A stretch of 64,000 bases of DNA from Flavobacteriales bacterium (GCA_022402535.1 JAKRSD010000015.1:17908-81907); one strand, 5' to 3'. Counted from the first letter of the stretch, positions 35,424 to 41,868 are shown. Made by a program: numbers and translations. Notes: a model not told the origin generated them from the letters alone.

Positions 35424-36707
35424 TTAAATCCGCTTACCGGTAAACAACAGCAAAAACCTGCGGGCCAGGGTGTACTCTTTTGTAAAAATGGTTGCCCGGG
35501 CCTGCATTTCCGGGGTAAACGGAATCTTTTTCCCTATATCGGTCTGTAAATCCGTATCCAGTTTAACTTTAATGCGGTAGGAACTGTCTTGTGGCAAATC
35601 AGAAATGAGCATCACCGTTCCGTTGAGGTAACCGTATTCTTCGGGCGGAAAAGAGGGTAATTCAATCTGAACACGGTTGCCCTTATTTATTTTTCCTATT
35701 CCTTCGGCTGGCAGGTTACCCGAGTAAATCAAATTTTCATATTCGGGGAGTATGTAAAACATGGGTTTATTGGGTTGAAAATGCCTGTTTACCTCTATGT
35801 TATTTCCTATGTAAAATAGTCTTCCCTCTTCTGGTGCCGATATCGAATAATTAAAATCAAGTTTGTTTTTAAAATCGCTTATGGCATAAATGGCGTTAAA
35901 AATATTTTCTTTTAAGGTTCTTTGTTTTTCATCTTCTTCAAATTCCAGTTCAATCTGTTGCTTCAGCATTGCTTCCAATTGAAGTTCAAGCGCGTTTATC
36001 TGCTCCTTGCCCGCTTCGAATGCCTTTCCTGCGGAAAGGAAATCTCCTTCGGCCTTTATAAAATCCATTTTTGAAATGGCTCCTTTTTCATACAGTTTTT
36101 TTTCTGTTTCAAATTTAAGGACAGCATTTTCATACTCTTTTTCGGTCAGTTTATTTTTCCTTTTTGAAACCGCTATATTCTGCTTAAGCAGCCATGCGGT
36201 AGCTTTTATGGATTGACTTCGTTTCTCAAATATTTTGGTGTCGTTCAGGGATTGAAGTTCTTTCCATGCCGAAACCATGCCGTAGTAGGTGTTGCTCAAA
36301 TCGCCCAGAATAAGTGTGGTATCGGGGTTTATGAAATAGAATTCGGGAAGTCCCGTTATATTTTCCTGAATCATTTTGGCTACCCGGCCCGCATAATCGA
36401 GGGCTGCCGTATCGGTTGTGTTTTTGAACGTTCCGATAATGTCTCCCTGTTTTACCTGTTCCCCATTTTTAACAGTCAGGGTTAATAATTCTCCCCCTGC
36501 ATTTGAGTTTAAAATGATCGGCGGGTTTTCGGGGCCTATATTCCCCGTGGAGTTCAGTTTGTCGGGGTAGCTGATAAACAAAGATATGCTTCCCAGCAGC
36601 AGGATAAACAAGGTAATGGTAATGCTTCCGTAAAGCACGAAGCCCCCGGGCGGCGAGGATAGAATTTCATCCAATTCTTCGGTACGGTTAGTATTCGGCA
36701 ACGGCAT
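35424..36707 (-). CDS. HlyD-family adaptor of the peptide exporter
   Basis: A 427-residue membrane-fusion protein of the bacteriocin-secretion type. One membrane helix near the N-terminus (about 25-47: VLYGSITITLFILLLGSISLFI) is followed by a lipoyl half-motif (NAGGELLTLTVKNGEQVKQGDIIG), a long coiled-coil hairpin (about 140-285), the second half (SAPEEGRLFYIGNNIEVNRHF) and a beta-barrel (NKGNRVQIELPSFPPEEYGYLNGTV). It should join the C39-peptidase ABC exporter to an outer-membrane channel. The gene starts 2 bp after the exporter gene and is the last of the operon that begins with the double-glycine precursor. Base composition resembles the core genome more than that of the precursor end. Confidence 0.9.
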   Translation of the reverse strand: MPLPNTNRTEELDEILSSPPGGFVLYGSITITLFILLLGSISLFISYPDKLNSTGNIGPENPPIILNSNAGGELLTLTVKNGEQVKQGDIIGTFKNTTDTAALDYAGRVAKMIQENITGLPEFYFINPDTTLILGDLSNTYYGMVSAWKELQSLNDTKIFEKRSQSIKATAWLLKQNIAVSKRKNKLTEKEYENAVLKFETEKKLYEKGAISKMDFIKAEGDFLSAGKAFEAGKEQINALELQLEAMLKQQIELEFEEDEKQRTLKENIFNAIYAISDFKNKLDFNYSISAPEEGRLFYIGNNIEVNRHFQPNKPMFYILPEYENLIYSGNLPAEGIGKINKGNRVQIELPSFPPEEYGYLNGTVMLISDLPQDSSYRIKVKLDTDLQTDIGKKIPFTPEMQARATIFTKEYTLARRFLLLFTGKRI

Positions 36708-36709
36708 TT

Positions 36710-38968
36710 TTAAGCTCCCAGTTCTAATTGGTTTTTAACTAAATTCCAGTAGGCCCCTTTTTGGTTTACCAACCCGGCGTGTGTGCCGGTTTCCATAATT
36801 TTCCCTTTTTCCAGTACCACAATCTGGTGGGCATTTTTAACGGTACTCAGCCGGTGGGCTATGATTACCACGGTTTTTCCCTGATAAAAATTTTCAAGGT
36901 TTTTACTGATTTCGTTTTCATTTTTTGCATCCAGCGCACTGGTGGCTTCGTCAAAAAACAAAAACAGGGGGTTTTTATACACGGCCCTCGCTATTAAAAT
37001 ACGTTGTTTTTGACCCGTGCTTAGCCCAATGCCCTCCCGGCCTATTTTGGTTTGGTAGGCCAGCGGTAATTGTTCTATAAACTCATTTATATTGGCCAGT
37101 TTGGCGGCTTCGGCCAGTTTGGCCGGATCCGGAGCATCTTCGCCGGGGGCAATGTTACCCGCTATCGTGTCCGAAAAAATATACCCTTCCTGCATTACGG
37201 TTCCGCAGCAGCTTCTCCAATACCCGTGCGGGATAAATTTCAGGTCGGTCGGACCCACTTTAATGCGTCCTTCGGTAGGTTCGTAAAACTGGAGCAGCAG
37301 TTTGAGCAACGTGGTTTTGCCGCTGCCGCTGGAGCCTACGATGGCCGTTATTTTTCCTTCGGGTATCTCCAAATCCAGGTTGTTCAGTACATTTTCGTTT
37401 CCGGCTCCCTCGTATCGGAATGATATGCCGGACAGCTGAATATTTTTACGTTCGGGCAGTGTTACGTGGTTTTCCGTCAGGCGGGGGTCTGTTTCGTCGG
37501 GTTTGTTTCTGATTTCATCCAGACGTTCCGCACTTATTTTGGCATCCTGATAGCCGCGCAGCAAATCTACCAACTGCAATACCGGCGCATTAAGCTGACC
37601 GGCAATATAGGAAACCGACAGCATCATGCCCAGGGTCATATCTCCTTTAATTACGGCCATGGCGGCGGCCACGGTGATGAGCATGTTCTTCAGTTCATTG
37701 ATGAGTCCGCTTCCGCTTTGCTGCCATTGATCTAGTTTCAGGCTTTGCAGGTTCAGGTTGAAAATTTTTACCTGTAATTTTTCCCATGCCCAGCGCAGGC
37801 TCAGTTCTGCATTATGCAGTTTTATTTCCTGCATGCCGTGTATCATTTCCACTACCTGGCTTTGGTTTGCACCCTGTTTGGCAAACCGCTTATAGTCCAG
37901 GTCGCGGCGTTTTTTCAAAAACAGGCTTATCCATAATGCATAGAGTAAACTGCCTGCCAAAAACAGAAAAAAGATGGGCGGGTGGTACACATACATTACC
38001 CCGCTCAGCACCAATAAATTTAGGAGAGAAAACGCCGTATTGAGTCCGGAGCCGGTTAAAAACTGCTCTATACGCTGTTGATCGCTTATGCGCTGCATGA
38101 TGTCGCCGGTGAGTTTAACATCAAAGTACGATGCCGGCAGCCGCATGAGTTTGGCAAAAAAATCGCTTACCATAGCCATGTTTACCCGGCTGCTTAGATG
38201 CATGAGCAGTTGCTGCCGTATAATGTCGAGCACGGTGCGGCCCGTAAATAACAAAAGCTGGGCCAGCAGTATAAGCCAAACAAAATGGATGTCGCGGTTG
38301 CGAATGCCGGTATCTACTATGCTCTGGGTAAGAAACGGCAGTGCCAGTTGTAGCAATGCGGCTCCGGCCAGCCCCGTTAAAATTTGAAGGGCTATTCTTT
38401 TATAGCGGAAAAAGTAGGGCAACAGCGCCCGTATTCCCTCGGATTTGCCGGGTATTTCTTCCGGGTTTGATTCTTCTTCGTGGGTGTAAAAGGCGGGTGT
38501 GGGTTCCAGCAGCAGCAATATTCCTTCGGGGCCTTCCGTGCCGTTTTCACCGGCCCAGTTTTGTATAAACTCTTCCCGGGTGTAGCTGAGCAGCCCGTGC
38601 CCCGGATCGGCCACGTGTACCCGGGTTCTGGGTTTGCCGAACAGGCGGTATGTAACCGAAATTTTGTATACTACCACAAAATGGTTTTGATTCCAGTGGG
38701 CAATGCAGGGCAAGAGAACCTCTTTTTTGAGCAGTACAAATGGCACTTTTACCCCTAGGCTGTGTAAGCCTATTTTTTCGGCGGCTTCGCTCATTCCCAA
38801 CATACTGGACCCCTGCCGGGTGGTTTGGCTCATGCGGCGCAGGTAAGGCAGCGAATAACTTTTACCGTAGTGTTTGGCCACCATGCGTATGCAGGTGGGA
38901 CCGCAGTCCATTATATCGGGTTGTTGGTAAAACGGAAAGGATATTTTTACGCTATTTCTTATTCCCAT
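36710..38968 (-). CDS. C39-peptidase ABC exporter (peptide processing and export)
   Basis: A 752-residue bifunctional exporter. Residues 10-150 are a C39 cysteine peptidase: Gln16 and Cys22 in QQPDIMDCGPTC, the His in IAHWNQNHFVVV and the Asp in VHVADPGHG are all present, so it should cut leaders after Gly-Gly. Membrane helices lie at about 195-455. The nucleotide-binding domain has GSSGSGKTT (Walker A), LSTGQKQRILIARA (signature), LFLFFDEATSALD (Walker B) and AHRLSTV. It overlaps the upstream TPR gene by 17 bp and lies 2 bp from the adaptor gene. The precursor at 41035-41247 has a matching double-glycine leader. Confidence 0.94.
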   Translation of the reverse strand: MGIRNSVKISFPFYQQPDIMDCGPTCIRMVAKHYGKSYSLPYLRRMSQTTRQGSSMLGMSEAAEKIGLHSLGVKVPFVLLKKEVLLPCIAHWNQNHFVVVYKISVTYRLFGKPRTRVHVADPGHGLLSYTREEFIQNWAGENGTEGPEGILLLLEPTPAFYTHEEESNPEEIPGKSEGIRALLPYFFRYKRIALQILTGLAGAALLQLALPFLTQSIVDTGIRNRDIHFVWLILLAQLLLFTGRTVLDIIRQQLLMHLSSRVNMAMVSDFFAKLMRLPASYFDVKLTGDIMQRISDQQRIEQFLTGSGLNTAFSLLNLLVLSGVMYVYHPPIFFLFLAGSLLYALWISLFLKKRRDLDYKRFAKQGANQSQVVEMIHGMQEIKLHNAELSLRWAWEKLQVKIFNLNLQSLKLDQWQQSGSGLINELKNMLITVAAAMAVIKGDMTLGMMLSVSYIAGQLNAPVLQLVDLLRGYQDAKISAERLDEIRNKPDETDPRLTENHVTLPERKNIQLSGISFRYEGAGNENVLNNLDLEIPEGKITAIVGSSGSGKTTLLKLLLQFYEPTEGRIKVGPTDLKFIPHGYWRSCCGTVMQEGYIFSDTIAGNIAPGEDAPDPAKLAEAAKLANINEFIEQLPLAYQTKIGREGIGLSTGQKQRILIARAVYKNPLFLFFDEATSALDAKNENEISKNLENFYQGKTVVIIAHRLSTVKNAHQIVVLEKGKIMETGTHAGLVNQKGAYWNLVKNQLELGA

Positions 38969-39791
38969 TTACTAACATTTCGTAATATTTTTTTTTTGAT
39001 TTATCTGCTAAACAGGTTTTTCCTTCTAAATAATTTAAAGCTAAAGTGAAAAATTGTGTTTTGATATTGTCAGGAATAGGATTTTTTTCAATTAAACTTT
39101 CATTTTCTAAAAAAATTTTTAAAGCAATTTCTTTAAAATAATCATTGTCAATTACCTTTTCTAAAAGGTAATTATTATATTGTATAATTCGATCGTCATT
39201 GCCTGATTTATACCAAATGTTATTTGCTTTCGTTATGTATGCTATGGTTGAATCTAAATTTTTGTTTTTTTCATAAGATATTGCTAAGTCAAAATAGCAA
39301 ACAGCGACTCCTTGATCAAACTCATTATTTTTAAAAATCTCTATAGCCATGTATATATGTGATTTTGCTTCCTCTATATTACTTTTTAATCCCCATATCA
39401 TACCTTCAAATTTCAACATATTTGCTTTTTTTAAATCATTTCCTGATAAGTGATACTTTTCAACTGACAAGTCGGCATAATAAACTGCACTATCAAGATT
39501 GTTTAGTTTTTCAAAGAAGATGAATGAAATATTTTGATGACATATTCCTACGTTTTCTAAATTTTCAAAATTGTTCCCAAAGTATAAGATAGCCTTTTTG
39601 AAATAATGTAGTGATGAATCGGGAGATATAAAATAATATTTTTCTCCGTCTCTTAGATATTCTTTTGCTTCAATAATGCTATCCTTAGATTCAATTATGC
39701 TTGAATTATAATTAGTTGTTTGGCAATGCGCAGCAATTGCGGTTTTTGATAGAAATATAGTAATGTAAACTATTTTTGCTATATTATTCAT
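38952..39791 (-). CDS. Secreted TPR-like protein in the graspetide operon
   Basis: A 279-residue protein of unknown function. Residues 1-24 form a signal peptide (KIVYITIFLSKTAIAAHC before Q), so it acts outside the cytoplasm; an alternative reading of the Cys as a lipid anchor is weak. The rest consists of helix-turn-helix repeats resembling tetratricopeptides (SSLHYFKKAILYFGN, NLDSAVYYADLSVEKY, EEAKSHIYMAIEIFKNN, GVAVCYFDLAISYEKNKNLD, STIAYITKANNIW). It overlaps the ligase gene by 8 bp and the exporter gene by 17 bp, so it is translationally embedded in the operon. It is strongly AT-rich. It might be an immunity, receptor or assembly factor; nothing in the sequence decides this. Confidence 0.8.
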   Translation of the reverse strand: MNNIAKIVYITIFLSKTAIAAHCQTTNYNSSIIESKDSIIEAKEYLRDGEKYYFISPDSSLHYFKKAILYFGNNFENLENVGICHQNISFIFFEKLNNLDSAVYYADLSVEKYHLSGNDLKKANMLKFEGMIWGLKSNIEEAKSHIYMAIEIFKNNEFDQGVAVCYFDLAISYEKNKNLDSTIAYITKANNIWYKSGNDDRIIQYNNYLLEKVIDNDYFKEIALKIFLENESLIEKNPIPDNIKTQFFTLALNYLEGKTCLADKSKKKYYEMLVNGNKK

Positions 39792-40977
39792 ATTTATCTA
39801 CTTTTAGTTTACTTATTTCCATTATAATTTCTTTTGTTATATCTAATCCAATGAAAGGGGCTAGCCAATAGTGGGCTCCAGGTCGATTTAATTCTAAAAA
39901 ATAATACTCTGAATTTTTACTTAAAATCAAATCTACACTACACCAAGTTAAATTTAATTCCTTGCATATATTAATTAATTTTGAATTAATATTTTCAGGA
40001 AGTTTAATGAGCTCCCATTTTACATTTGAATCATCATGGACTCTCCAATCATCTTTTGCTAGTTCTGAGTCTTGCGAATATATTTTACATCCAAATACCC
40101 TTTCAAATAAGACAATTGCCCGAATTTCATATTCTTTTTCTATATATTCTTGGAAACAGCACGGTGAATTTTTTAATTTGGATAAATTCATGCTGTTCAA
40201 ATCAATTTTTATAGGAGGAAATGAGAAAGGAGGTGTTGAAAATTCTCTTAGTAAAACATGGCTGTGTTTTTTCGCAAAATTCTTTGCTTCTCCGATTTTG
40301 TTAGTTAGGATAGTTTCTGGCACATTAAATCCTATTTTTTTTGCAAGATTCAATTCACTTATTTTATCCTGCCACTCTTGAGAGCCAACAAAAGGATTAC
40401 CAGGGATCCAAATAGCATCCTTTCTTATAAACTTAGATATCTCTTTTAACGATTGTTTCCAACGCTTTTTAAATAAAAATTTATTTCGGCCTTTAAACTG
40501 AGGAATCATCTCGAAATCGACTAGAGGAAATGGATATTTTGGAGTATTCCATATCACTATCGAAACATCATCAAGATCTAAATAAACGTCATCAACATTT
40601 AGTATAGATTTTGTTTCATTATCATTTATTATGAATTTTATCTCACCTTCAAATATAAAGCGTACAAAATCAATAAAAAAGAATTTTAGATTATTGTTTT
40701 TTAATTGATTGATTATGCCATAGCTAAGGTTGCCAATTGCAAACACGAGTACAATGTTCTGCTTTTTATCACTTGGCTCATAATTAGTTATAATAGTATA
40801 ATCAACTTCTTTTTTTTCTTTTTCAACTTCTTGTACTATGTTTTTTATTTTCTTAGGATCATGAGGCTTCCATGTCCATTTCTCTGGATTTGACTTGTTT
40901 TCAACTTGTTTTTTCAGTAATTCGGGTACTTTTTTGCTTAATTCAGCCAGTCCAAAAACGTAATATTCTTTCTCCAT
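39784..40977 (-). CDS. ATP-grasp peptide ligase, graspetide (MvdC/MvdD/GwsG-like) type
   Basis: A 397-residue ligase. The C-terminal two thirds match ATP-grasp macrocyclases that form omega-ester or omega-amide links: NPFVGSQEWQDKISELNLAKK, GFNVPETILTNK, HVLLREFSTPPF, CFQEYIEKEYEIRAIV, DWRVHD (Arg312) and YFLELNRPGAHYW. Asp349, Glu362 and Asn364 are the expected Mg/ATP ligands. Known enzymes join Thr/Ser or Lys side chains to Asp/Glu of a precursor, using ATP. The N-terminal ~110 residues are unfamiliar (WTWKPHDPKKIKNIVQ). It is AT-rich, starts 57 bp after the precursor stop and overlaps the TPR gene. No radical-SAM SPASM partner lies nearby, unlike grasp-with-spasm loci. Confidence 0.85.
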   Translation of the reverse strand: MEKEYYVFGLAELSKKVPELLKKQVENKSNPEKWTWKPHDPKKIKNIVQEVEKEKKEVDYTIITNYEPSDKKQNIVLVFAIGNLSYGIINQLKNNNLKFFFIDFVRFIFEGEIKFIINDNETKSILNVDDVYLDLDDVSIVIWNTPKYPFPLVDFEMIPQFKGRNKFLFKKRWKQSLKEISKFIRKDAIWIPGNPFVGSQEWQDKISELNLAKKIGFNVPETILTNKIGEAKNFAKKHSHVLLREFSTPPFSFPPIKIDLNSMNLSKLKNSPCCFQEYIEKEYEIRAIVLFERVFGCKIYSQDSELAKDDWRVHDDSNVKWELIKLPENINSKLINICKELNLTWCSVDLILSKNSEYYFLELNRPGAHYWLAPFIGLDITKEIIMEISKLKVDKYE

Positions 40978-40998
40978 TTTGTCTTAATAATTTATTTA

Positions 40999-41030
40999 GG
41001 GGGCATGTACCTCTCAAGGCACATGCCCTC
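40999..41030 (-). promoter_or_regulatory. Stem-loop between precursor and ligase genes
   Basis: GGGCATGT (41001-41008) pairs with ACATGCCC (41021-41028); after an A-C mismatch CCT pairs with AGG around a CTCA loop, and one wobble plus one G-C pair extend the base. On the minus strand it lies 5 nt after the precursor stop codon and is followed by CCTAAATAAATT, not a U-run. It looks like a leaky terminator or an mRNA-stabilising hairpin that keeps precursor message in excess of enzyme message. Confidence 0.6.
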
Positions 41031-41034
41031 ATTT

Positions 41035-41247
41035 TTATCTTTCTGTATCAGTGGTAGTACCACCAGATGCAAGTTCACTTGTAACATCCTGATTGTCAGA
41101 TCCAGTATTGTCAGTATCAGTGGTTGTTCCACCAGATGCTAATTCGCTTGTAACATCCTGACTGTCATTAGAACCACCTGGTCTTGATCCTCCAATTAGA
41201 GACGATAGTTTGCTTGTAGATAAGCTCTTAACTTTTTTAATTTTCAT
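41035..41247 (-). CDS. Candidate graspetide precursor with double-glycine leader and two core repeats
   Basis: A 70-residue peptide. The leader (1-20) is basic and ends LSSLIGG, a double-glycine site for the C39 peptidase of the operon. The core (21-70) is rich in Thr, Ser, Asp, Glu and Gly. The 16-residue unit QDVTSELASGGTTTDT occurs at 30-45 and 53-68 without any residue change, with a period of 23 residues. Thr/Ser hydroxyls as donors and Asp/Glu carboxyls as acceptors would suit the adjacent ATP-grasp ligase. There is no Cys, and no Lys after the leader, so ester rather than amide or thioether links are expected. It lacks the microviridin TxRxPSDxDE and PFFARFL motifs. Start and frame were checked codon by codon. 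Confidence 0.85.
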   Translation of the reverse strand: MKIKKVKSLSTSKLSSLIGGSRPGGSNDSQDVTSELASGGTTTDTDNTGSDNQDVTSELASGGTTTDTER

Positions 41248-41361
41248 TTTATGAATAATTTTGAAACAGCCTTTTTAATATTCCGTTGGCTTTTAATTAC
41301 GTACCATTTAAACCAGACTCACGTGCGCCTAGCCCTTATGTTAGCCATAAATTTCGAACTT

Positions 41362-41403
41362 TTTGGTTACATTTCCGTTCACTTTGGCGAAGTGTTAACC
41401 AAA
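41362..41403. promoter_or_regulatory. Candidate operator dyads for the XRE regulator
   Basis: An inner dyad CACTT-tggcg-AAGTG (41380-41394) spans the predicted start of transcription of the precursor operon. An outer inverted repeat TTTGGTTA (41362-41369) / TAACCAAA (41396-41403) overlaps the -7 box. It lies in the divergent gap between the precursor and XRE genes, so the XRE protein is the likely ligand (inference). Confidence 0.5.
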
Positions 41404-41432
41404 TTTATATTGTTTAGCATTTGTTTTCCAAA
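41400..41432 (-). promoter_or_regulatory. Promoter of the RiPP operon
   Basis: On the minus strand: TTTG (41432-41429), a 21-bp spacer and TAAATTTG (41407-41400). Transcription would start near 41394, leaving an unusually long 5-prime leader of about 145 nt before the precursor ATG. Confidence 0.65.
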
Positions 41433-41483
41433 ACTTTAAGCCTGTAAATTATTGAAAAATTCCGATATTTTATCAATATCATA

Positions 41484-41491
41484 TACTTTTG
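41484..41491 (+). promoter_or_regulatory. Promoter -7 element for the XRE regulator
   Basis: TACTTTTG directly upstream of an AAGGAG ribosome-binding site (41498-41503) and the ATG at 41509. The 5-prime leader would be only about 10-12 nt. No matching -33 TTTG was found. The strong Shine-Dalgarno sequence, unusual in this phylum, decides the start codon. Confidence 0.5.
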
Positions 41492-41508
41492 GTAAAAAAG
41501 GAGTGCTT

Positions 41509-41868
41509 ATGTACGGAAGCAAAATTGCCAGTATTAGAAAGGCCAGAGGCCTTAAACAAGGGGAAGTAGCCGAAAAATTGGGTATGAGTCAGGCTTCTTA
41601 CTCGGATATTGAGAACAATAATCGCAAATACCTGGATGAAGCCCTTATTGAAAAAATTGCCGAGGCTTTGGGTGTAAAAACGGAAGATATCAAAAGCCAA
41701 AGCCCCATAGTCATGAATTTTCATGAAAGCCCGAACAGTAACGGATATCAAACAAATCAAAATGATTCAAGGGTAATTGATGCGCTGCTTGATCAGTTGA
41801 GGGTAAAAGATGAACAATTGGCTGCCAAGGATGAAATTATAAAAAGGCTTTTAGATTCAAAAAGCTGA
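41509..41868 (+). CDS. XRE-family regulator with C-terminal coiled coil
   Basis: A 119-residue regulator. The start at 41509 follows AAGGAG by 5 nt; the frame upstream to a TTG at 41452 is rejected. Residues 5-58 are a Cro/C1-type helix-turn-helix (IASIRKARGLKQGEVAEKLG, MSQASYSDIENNNRKY, IEKIAEALGV). After a Ser/Asn-rich linker, residues 85-119 form a short heptad-like coiled coil (VIDALLDQLRVKDEQLAAKD), likely for dimerisation. This architecture is common beside phage and RiPP genes in Bacteroidota. It is divergent from the precursor gene with dyads in the shared gap and probably controls that operon. Confidence 0.85.
   Translation: MYGSKIASIRKARGLKQGEVAEKLGMSQASYSDIENNNRKYLDEALIEKIAEALGVKTEDIKSQSPIVMNFHESPNSNGYQTNQNDSRVIDALLDQLRVKDEQLAAKDEIIKRLLDSKS

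Follow-up and report, generated by a model that had tools for sequence, protein, structure and literature searches.

A six-gene cluster lies between positions 35424 and 41868 of the window, the 64,000-nt stretch of Flavobacteriales DNA that was analysed. Five open reading frames run leftward and one, for an XRE-type regulator, runs rightward, which confirms the gene positions proposed in the initial annotation. Together they most likely make and export a small peptide that is ring-closed by an ATP-using enzyme. The cluster contains the following features:

35424–36707, minus strand: HlyD-type periplasmic adaptor, 427 aa
36710–38968, minus strand: C39 peptidase-containing ABC exporter (PCAT), 752 aa, with C39 (Pfam E = 3e-30), ABC_membrane and ABC_tran domains
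38952–39791, minus strand: predicted exported TPR protein, 279 aa, with weak TPR matches
39784–40977, minus strand: ATP-grasp ligase of 397 aa, a predicted graspetide synthetase with ~70 additional aa at the N-terminus
41001–41028, minus strand: RNA hairpin with a 12-bp stem between precursor and ligase (-22 kcal/mol, z = -5.3)
41035–41247, minus strand: open reading frame for the precursor peptide, 70 aa, with leader MKIKKVKSLSTSKLSSLIGG and then two core repeats; orthologues (45–49% identity) lie beside each related ligase
41044–41091, minus strand: core repeat 2, QDVTSELASGGTTTDT (aa 53–68), with six silent differences from repeat 1
41113–41160, minus strand: core repeat 1, QDVTSELASGGTTTDT (aa 30–45), a motif conserved in four genomes
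41188–41247, minus strand: leader with a double-glycine site (aa 1–20), candidate C39 cleavage after Gly20; the GG is in the same place in 4 of 4 precursors
41400–41431, minus strand: promoter-like site of the Bacteroidota type (TTG ... TAAATTTG) upstream of the precursor, from a pattern scan (consensus match only)
41509–41868, plus strand: XRE-type regulator, divergent from the precursor (HTH_3 E = 4e-14)

Recomputing the spacing gave overlaps of 8 bp and 17 bp and a 2-bp gap, as reported before, and a gap of 57 nt between precursor and ligase. The leftward genes had been described as one tightly packed unit, which is correct from the ligase onwards but not for the precursor, set apart from the ligase by the strong hairpin. 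This hairpin is likely to lower read-through or to stabilise the precursor mRNA. At the regulator, the TTG at 41452 need not be the start of the gene, because the earliest ATG that leaves the HTH domain intact is at 41509.

The core noted in the initial annotation is present in the precursor, but in two copies. These start 69 nt apart and are identical in 16 of 16 residues, and the nucleotide differences between them (6 of 48) are all silent. Since random sets of six substitutions were entirely silent in only 27 of 200,000 cases, the repeat is under constraint at the protein level and not a matter of chance.

Three other Bacteroidota contigs encode relatives of the ligase (50–56% identical), each with a precursor carrying the shared core directly beside the ligase:

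L041 (the same as L008): Vicingaceae MAG JAHYJH010000198.1
L042: Chitinophagaceae MAG JAEUVD010000014.1
L043 (the same as L037): Bacteroidetes MAG JABDFU010000024.1

All three come from metagenomes; two of the contigs are short or broken, and the organism names rest on binning. The order precursor, hairpin, ligase is conserved: the hairpin is strong in L042 (z = -3.8) and L043 (z = -5.3), and one was read by eye at the same place in L041, where the order of precursor, ligase, TPR and C39-ABC genes is also that of the window. The ligase in L043 (1–2070) is split, with residues 1 to ~154 on the minus strand and, at the contig edge, 166–397 on the plus strand, by either an inversion or an assembly artefact.

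The core common to the four precursors is D-x-[TY]-S-E-x3-GG-TTTDT, with the individual sequences DVTSELASGGTTTDT (twice) in the window, DTTSENTSGGTTTDT in L041, DTYSEDTSGGTTTDT in L042 and DCTSEVACGGTTTDT in L043. Residues D1, S4, E5, G9, G10, T11, T12, T13, D14 and T15 are invariant in all five copies. The core lacks the microviridin motif TxRxPSDxDE, as the initial annotation had said.

The four genomes that share this ligase and core are distantly related Bacteroidota, and the branch is rare. There is one ligase copy in the source genome, and neither the ligase nor the HlyD gene was found in 15 genomes of the same family, bar one weak partial match to the latter. Among 395 genomes of the class, two have a ligase relative of 55–56% identity, the next best match being at 37%; a scan of GTDB r220, which used two short peptide patterns only and was not exhaustive, returned the same two contigs and one more. 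No further member was found in the orders of two of the relatives' genomes or in 395 genomes of the phylum. A precursor profile matched only the three ligase-bearing genomes among the 395 of the class; it was built from those same sequences, and its informative part is that no precursor without a ligase was found. With the precursor alone as query, the 395 phylum genomes yielded the window itself and three weak matches. Viral contigs contained no relative that we could find, and plasmids only distant ligases (at most 31% identity among the matches listed). A short ligase fragment in L049 (56% over 36 aa), which is broken by stop codons and has no precursor nearby, was left out.

The profile search proposed in the initial annotation gave the best ligase scores with graspetide HMMs (MvdD 121, MvdC 120.6, SAV_5884 114 and GwsG 76.9 bits, with RimK at 36 bits). 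However, every curated NCBIfam cut-off (425/475 bits for MvdC/MvdD, 350 for SAV_5884/TgmB and 230 for GwsG) was missed by a wide margin, which counts against a graspetide assignment. The Pfam RimK-like ATP-grasp domain is slightly over its cut-off. Matches to PDB sequences are CdnC, MdnC (5ig9), AMdnB, MdnB (5ig8), PruB (9bou) and PsnB (7drm), with CdnC the best (E = 3e-23 by sequence, 3.5e-27 by profile). An AlphaFold model of the ligase (pLDDT 72.6, pTM 0.74; the N-terminal ~60 residues, at pLDDT <60, not interpretable) was used for a fold search, in which the top 31 matches are chains of MdnC, AMdnB, CdnC, MdnB, PruB and PsnB (E from 1.5e-21), followed by RimK (E = 8.5e-12).

In a maximum-likelihood tree of 60 sequences, the window ligase and its three relatives form one group with 100/100 support, and the stem leading to it measures 2.35 changes per site. 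The group is located inside the graspetide ligases, separated with 98/96 support from RimK plus one odd long-branch sequence; it does not group with non-peptide ATP-grasp enzymes, an outcome that the initial annotation had said would refute its reading. Asp349, Glu362 and Asn364, the ligands proposed there, fall in alignment columns where 54, 55 and 55 of the 55 other graspetide ligases have the same residue; R286 and R312 are kept as well, and apart from column 244 the metal and phosphate residues are conserved. Scores, solved-sequence matches, fold matches and tree all favour graspetide synthetases over RimK and place the ligase in the graspetide branch of the ATP-grasp enzymes; the original reading as a graspetide system is well supported. 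The adjoining precursor, with its leader and a core of conserved Ser/Thr and Asp/Glu, is what a graspetide system is expected to have.

A RimK-like or PGM1-like ATP-grasp enzyme could instead attach an amino acid or small group without forming rings, the Thr-rich core being a recognised substrate only. A shifted active site would fit such a reaction. Column 244, which in the established picture of the ATP-grasp fold is the ATP-binding Lys, is Arg in all four ligases of the group and Lys in all 55 other graspetide ligases, which speaks against the graspetide reading, and NRPGAHYW replaces N-P-x-G-[QE]; the donor and acceptor order of the core is unusual as well. We consider simple ligation very improbable, given that macrocyclases match better than RimK in both fold and sequence and that a macrocyclase uses just those Ser, Thr, Asp and Glu residues that are invariant here. 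In a graspetide synthetase, the Lys-to-Arg change would be a direct test of how far the ATP site can alter.

The ABC exporter has Gln16 and Cys22 in its C39 domain, as reported before, with a His of HWNQNHF and the Asp of ADPG downstream. It aligns over its full length (residues 7–745) to the bacteriocin transporter 4ry2, and the C39 domain is 64% identical in L041. The protein is an intact PCAT, in which a C39 domain with Gln, Cys, His and Asp is fused to an ABC exporter. PCATs such as PDB 4ry2 have the same four residues, whereas the exporter here is paired with an HlyD adaptor for a two-membrane cell.

We regard it as highly probable that the cluster directs graspetide biosynthesis, with side-chain rings made by the ligase, cutting by the C39 domain and export through the ABC transporter and HlyD. 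The ligase would bind the precursor and use ATP to phosphorylate Asp/Glu side chains of each core repeat; the activated Asp/Glu would then be joined to Thr/Ser to give side-chain ester rings, each of the two repeats probably being cyclised on its own. Known graspetide synthetases phosphorylate the carboxylate, which is attacked by Ser, Thr or Lys (PMC13097080). During export, the C39 domain of the exporter would cut after Gly19-Gly20, and HlyD would bridge the periplasm. The TPR protein may act outside the cytoplasm, as a partner or in self-protection, and the XRE protein would control expression.

The leaders of two precursor orthologues have weak matches to double-glycine leader families. 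The precursor has no Phhx(1,2)h leader motif, which counts against the graspetide reading; the motif is present in about half of known graspetide precursors (PMC8939145). The internal SGG might be a second C39 site that releases short TTTDT peptides, in which case the GG would not be where a ring system turns. Multiple GG sites in a single precursor have been described (PMC8939145), and the GG is invariant in every core copy. However, four places before this cut the residue is Ala or Thr, in contrast to a large hydrophobic residue at the leader site, and in the five core copies the conservation of D-x-[TY]-S-E ahead of the GG comes close to that of TTTDT behind it. A second cleavage site therefore seems improbable to us.

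In the core, two invariant acids, Asp31 and Glu35, come before the Thr triplet, which departs from the usual order, leaves more than one ring topology conceivable and counts against the graspetide reading. Donors normally precede acceptors in graspetides, and one synthetase left a reversed-order variant unmodified (PMC12291112). The acceptors downstream of the Thr triplet are D44 and, one to three residues beyond T45, a single Asp/Glu; donor-first pairs are possible from Ser34 to Asp44, or from Thr41–43 to the Asp/Glu past Thr45. We tentatively put forward, as a doubtful but possible model, that the cores fold as hairpins round the GG, with two nested esters linking the doublets S34-E35 and T43-D44, namely S34–D44 in the usual direction and T43–E35 in reverse, or with two reverse rings, D31–T45 and E35–T41, formed by an Arg-for-Lys synthetase. 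If true, the nested or reverse rings would make this a graspetide with acceptor-before-donor linkage, produced by a synthetase that uses Arg for the ATP-binding Lys. Acceptor-first or mixed-direction rings, if real, would break the donor-before-acceptor pattern of the class and provide a new cyclase for peptide engineering. The short core repeats are easily expressed and measured.

Chryseoviridin and microviridin systems (MdnB/MdnC, CdnC; TIGR04184/TIGR04185) share with the cluster the ATP-grasp fold, the Mg-binding D/E/N and a precursor beside the ligase. They have a pair of ligases, whereas the cluster has one, with a fold match of at most 25% identity, ~70 extra residues at the N-terminus and Arg for the ATP-site Lys. 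Plesiocin (group 2, PsnB), with the core motif TTxxxxEE, is alike in having repeated donor- and acceptor-rich core units in one precursor, but the core here is SE-x7-TD with an invariant GG, and PsnB is only distant (15–17% in the fold match). Grasp-with-spasm (GwsG/GwsS, TIGR04192) also combines Bacteroidota hosts, a GG leader and an ATP-grasp ligase. The SAV_5884/TgmB type (TIGR04187) differs from the cluster both by score (114 versus 350 bits) and by its O-methyltransferase, of which there is none among the cluster genes.

The cluster could be an ordinary member of a described class, of microviridin/chryseoviridin or grasp-with-spasm type, given the common ligase superfamily, CdnC as the nearest solved structure, the Bacteroidota hosts and the GG leader. 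We see only a slim chance of this, since the ligase group belongs neither to the GwsG clade nor to either of the two clades of paired chryseoviridin-type ligases and has a long stem to itself, scores 77–121 bits against cut-offs of 230–475, and comes with neither a TxRxPSDxDE core nor a PFFARFL leader, nor with a SPASM radical-SAM gene among the cluster genes. In the tree the ligase is not GwsG-like, GwsG being one of the enzymes that the initial annotation had invoked along with MvdC and MvdD.

The ligase and its putative ring-forming core apparently constitute a rare, undescribed branch of the graspetides. Published surveys distinguish 24 plus 19 graspetide groups and 174 families (Makarova et al. 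2022). That the initial annotation knew of no described class with this core agrees with the absence of GGTTTDT from the graspetide literature searched, a search that did not extend to the supplements listing the 43 groups and 174 families. Core motif and ligase may already be listed there without a name, as the 2026 RODEO survey holds >20,000 predicted precursors and that of Makarova et al. (2022) 2,174, small Bacteroidota families included. We think this unlikely, if by no means negligible: only four members were found, the three relatives all being metagenome assemblies, and each of the 19 new groups of the RODEO survey has at least 20 members. An undescribed branch would enlarge the graspetide synthetases by a deep, rare group that has a core motif of its own, shared by four distant Bacteroidota genomes.

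Other graspetide loci were also observed. L002, L046 and L070 contain a different family, whose precursors each have three core repeats (form TxTxT...EPSDSD); after the ligase, L002 and L046 also encode a membrane protein of ~255 aa. L044, L047 and L048 have ligases of another clade, and their precursors, which have no evident GG leader, contain a Thr run and then N-G-P-R-G and spaced Asp. Upstream of graspetide precursors in L041 (45–368) and L029 are genes for small HTH proteins whose C-terminal half contains a double-glycine motif.

The TPR protein is a candidate partner or immunity protein. An orthologue with 28% identity occupies the same place in L041, and a search of solved structures gave nothing useful. 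It may not be a fixed part of the cluster, because the C-terminal part of the ligase in L043 precedes a Fib_succ_major (FISUMP) gene and not a TPR gene; this gene (688–1386), for an exported protein, overlaps the ligase end by 19 bp. The ligase and TPR genes have a GC content of 0.29 and 0.26 and a GC3 of 0.21–0.23, versus 0.47–0.49 and 0.52–0.56 for the ABC exporter and flanking genes. The low GC and GC3, together with the patchy distribution, suggest separate acquisitions for the biosynthetic genes and the exporter genes. An empty site was not found in the family relatives examined, where the flanking genes (diphosphomevalonate decarboxylase and amidophosphoribosyltransferase) are split between contigs or widely spaced, by ~50 kb in G001. 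Elsewhere in the window, at 332–1744, there are two tandem exported FISUMP-like paralogues.
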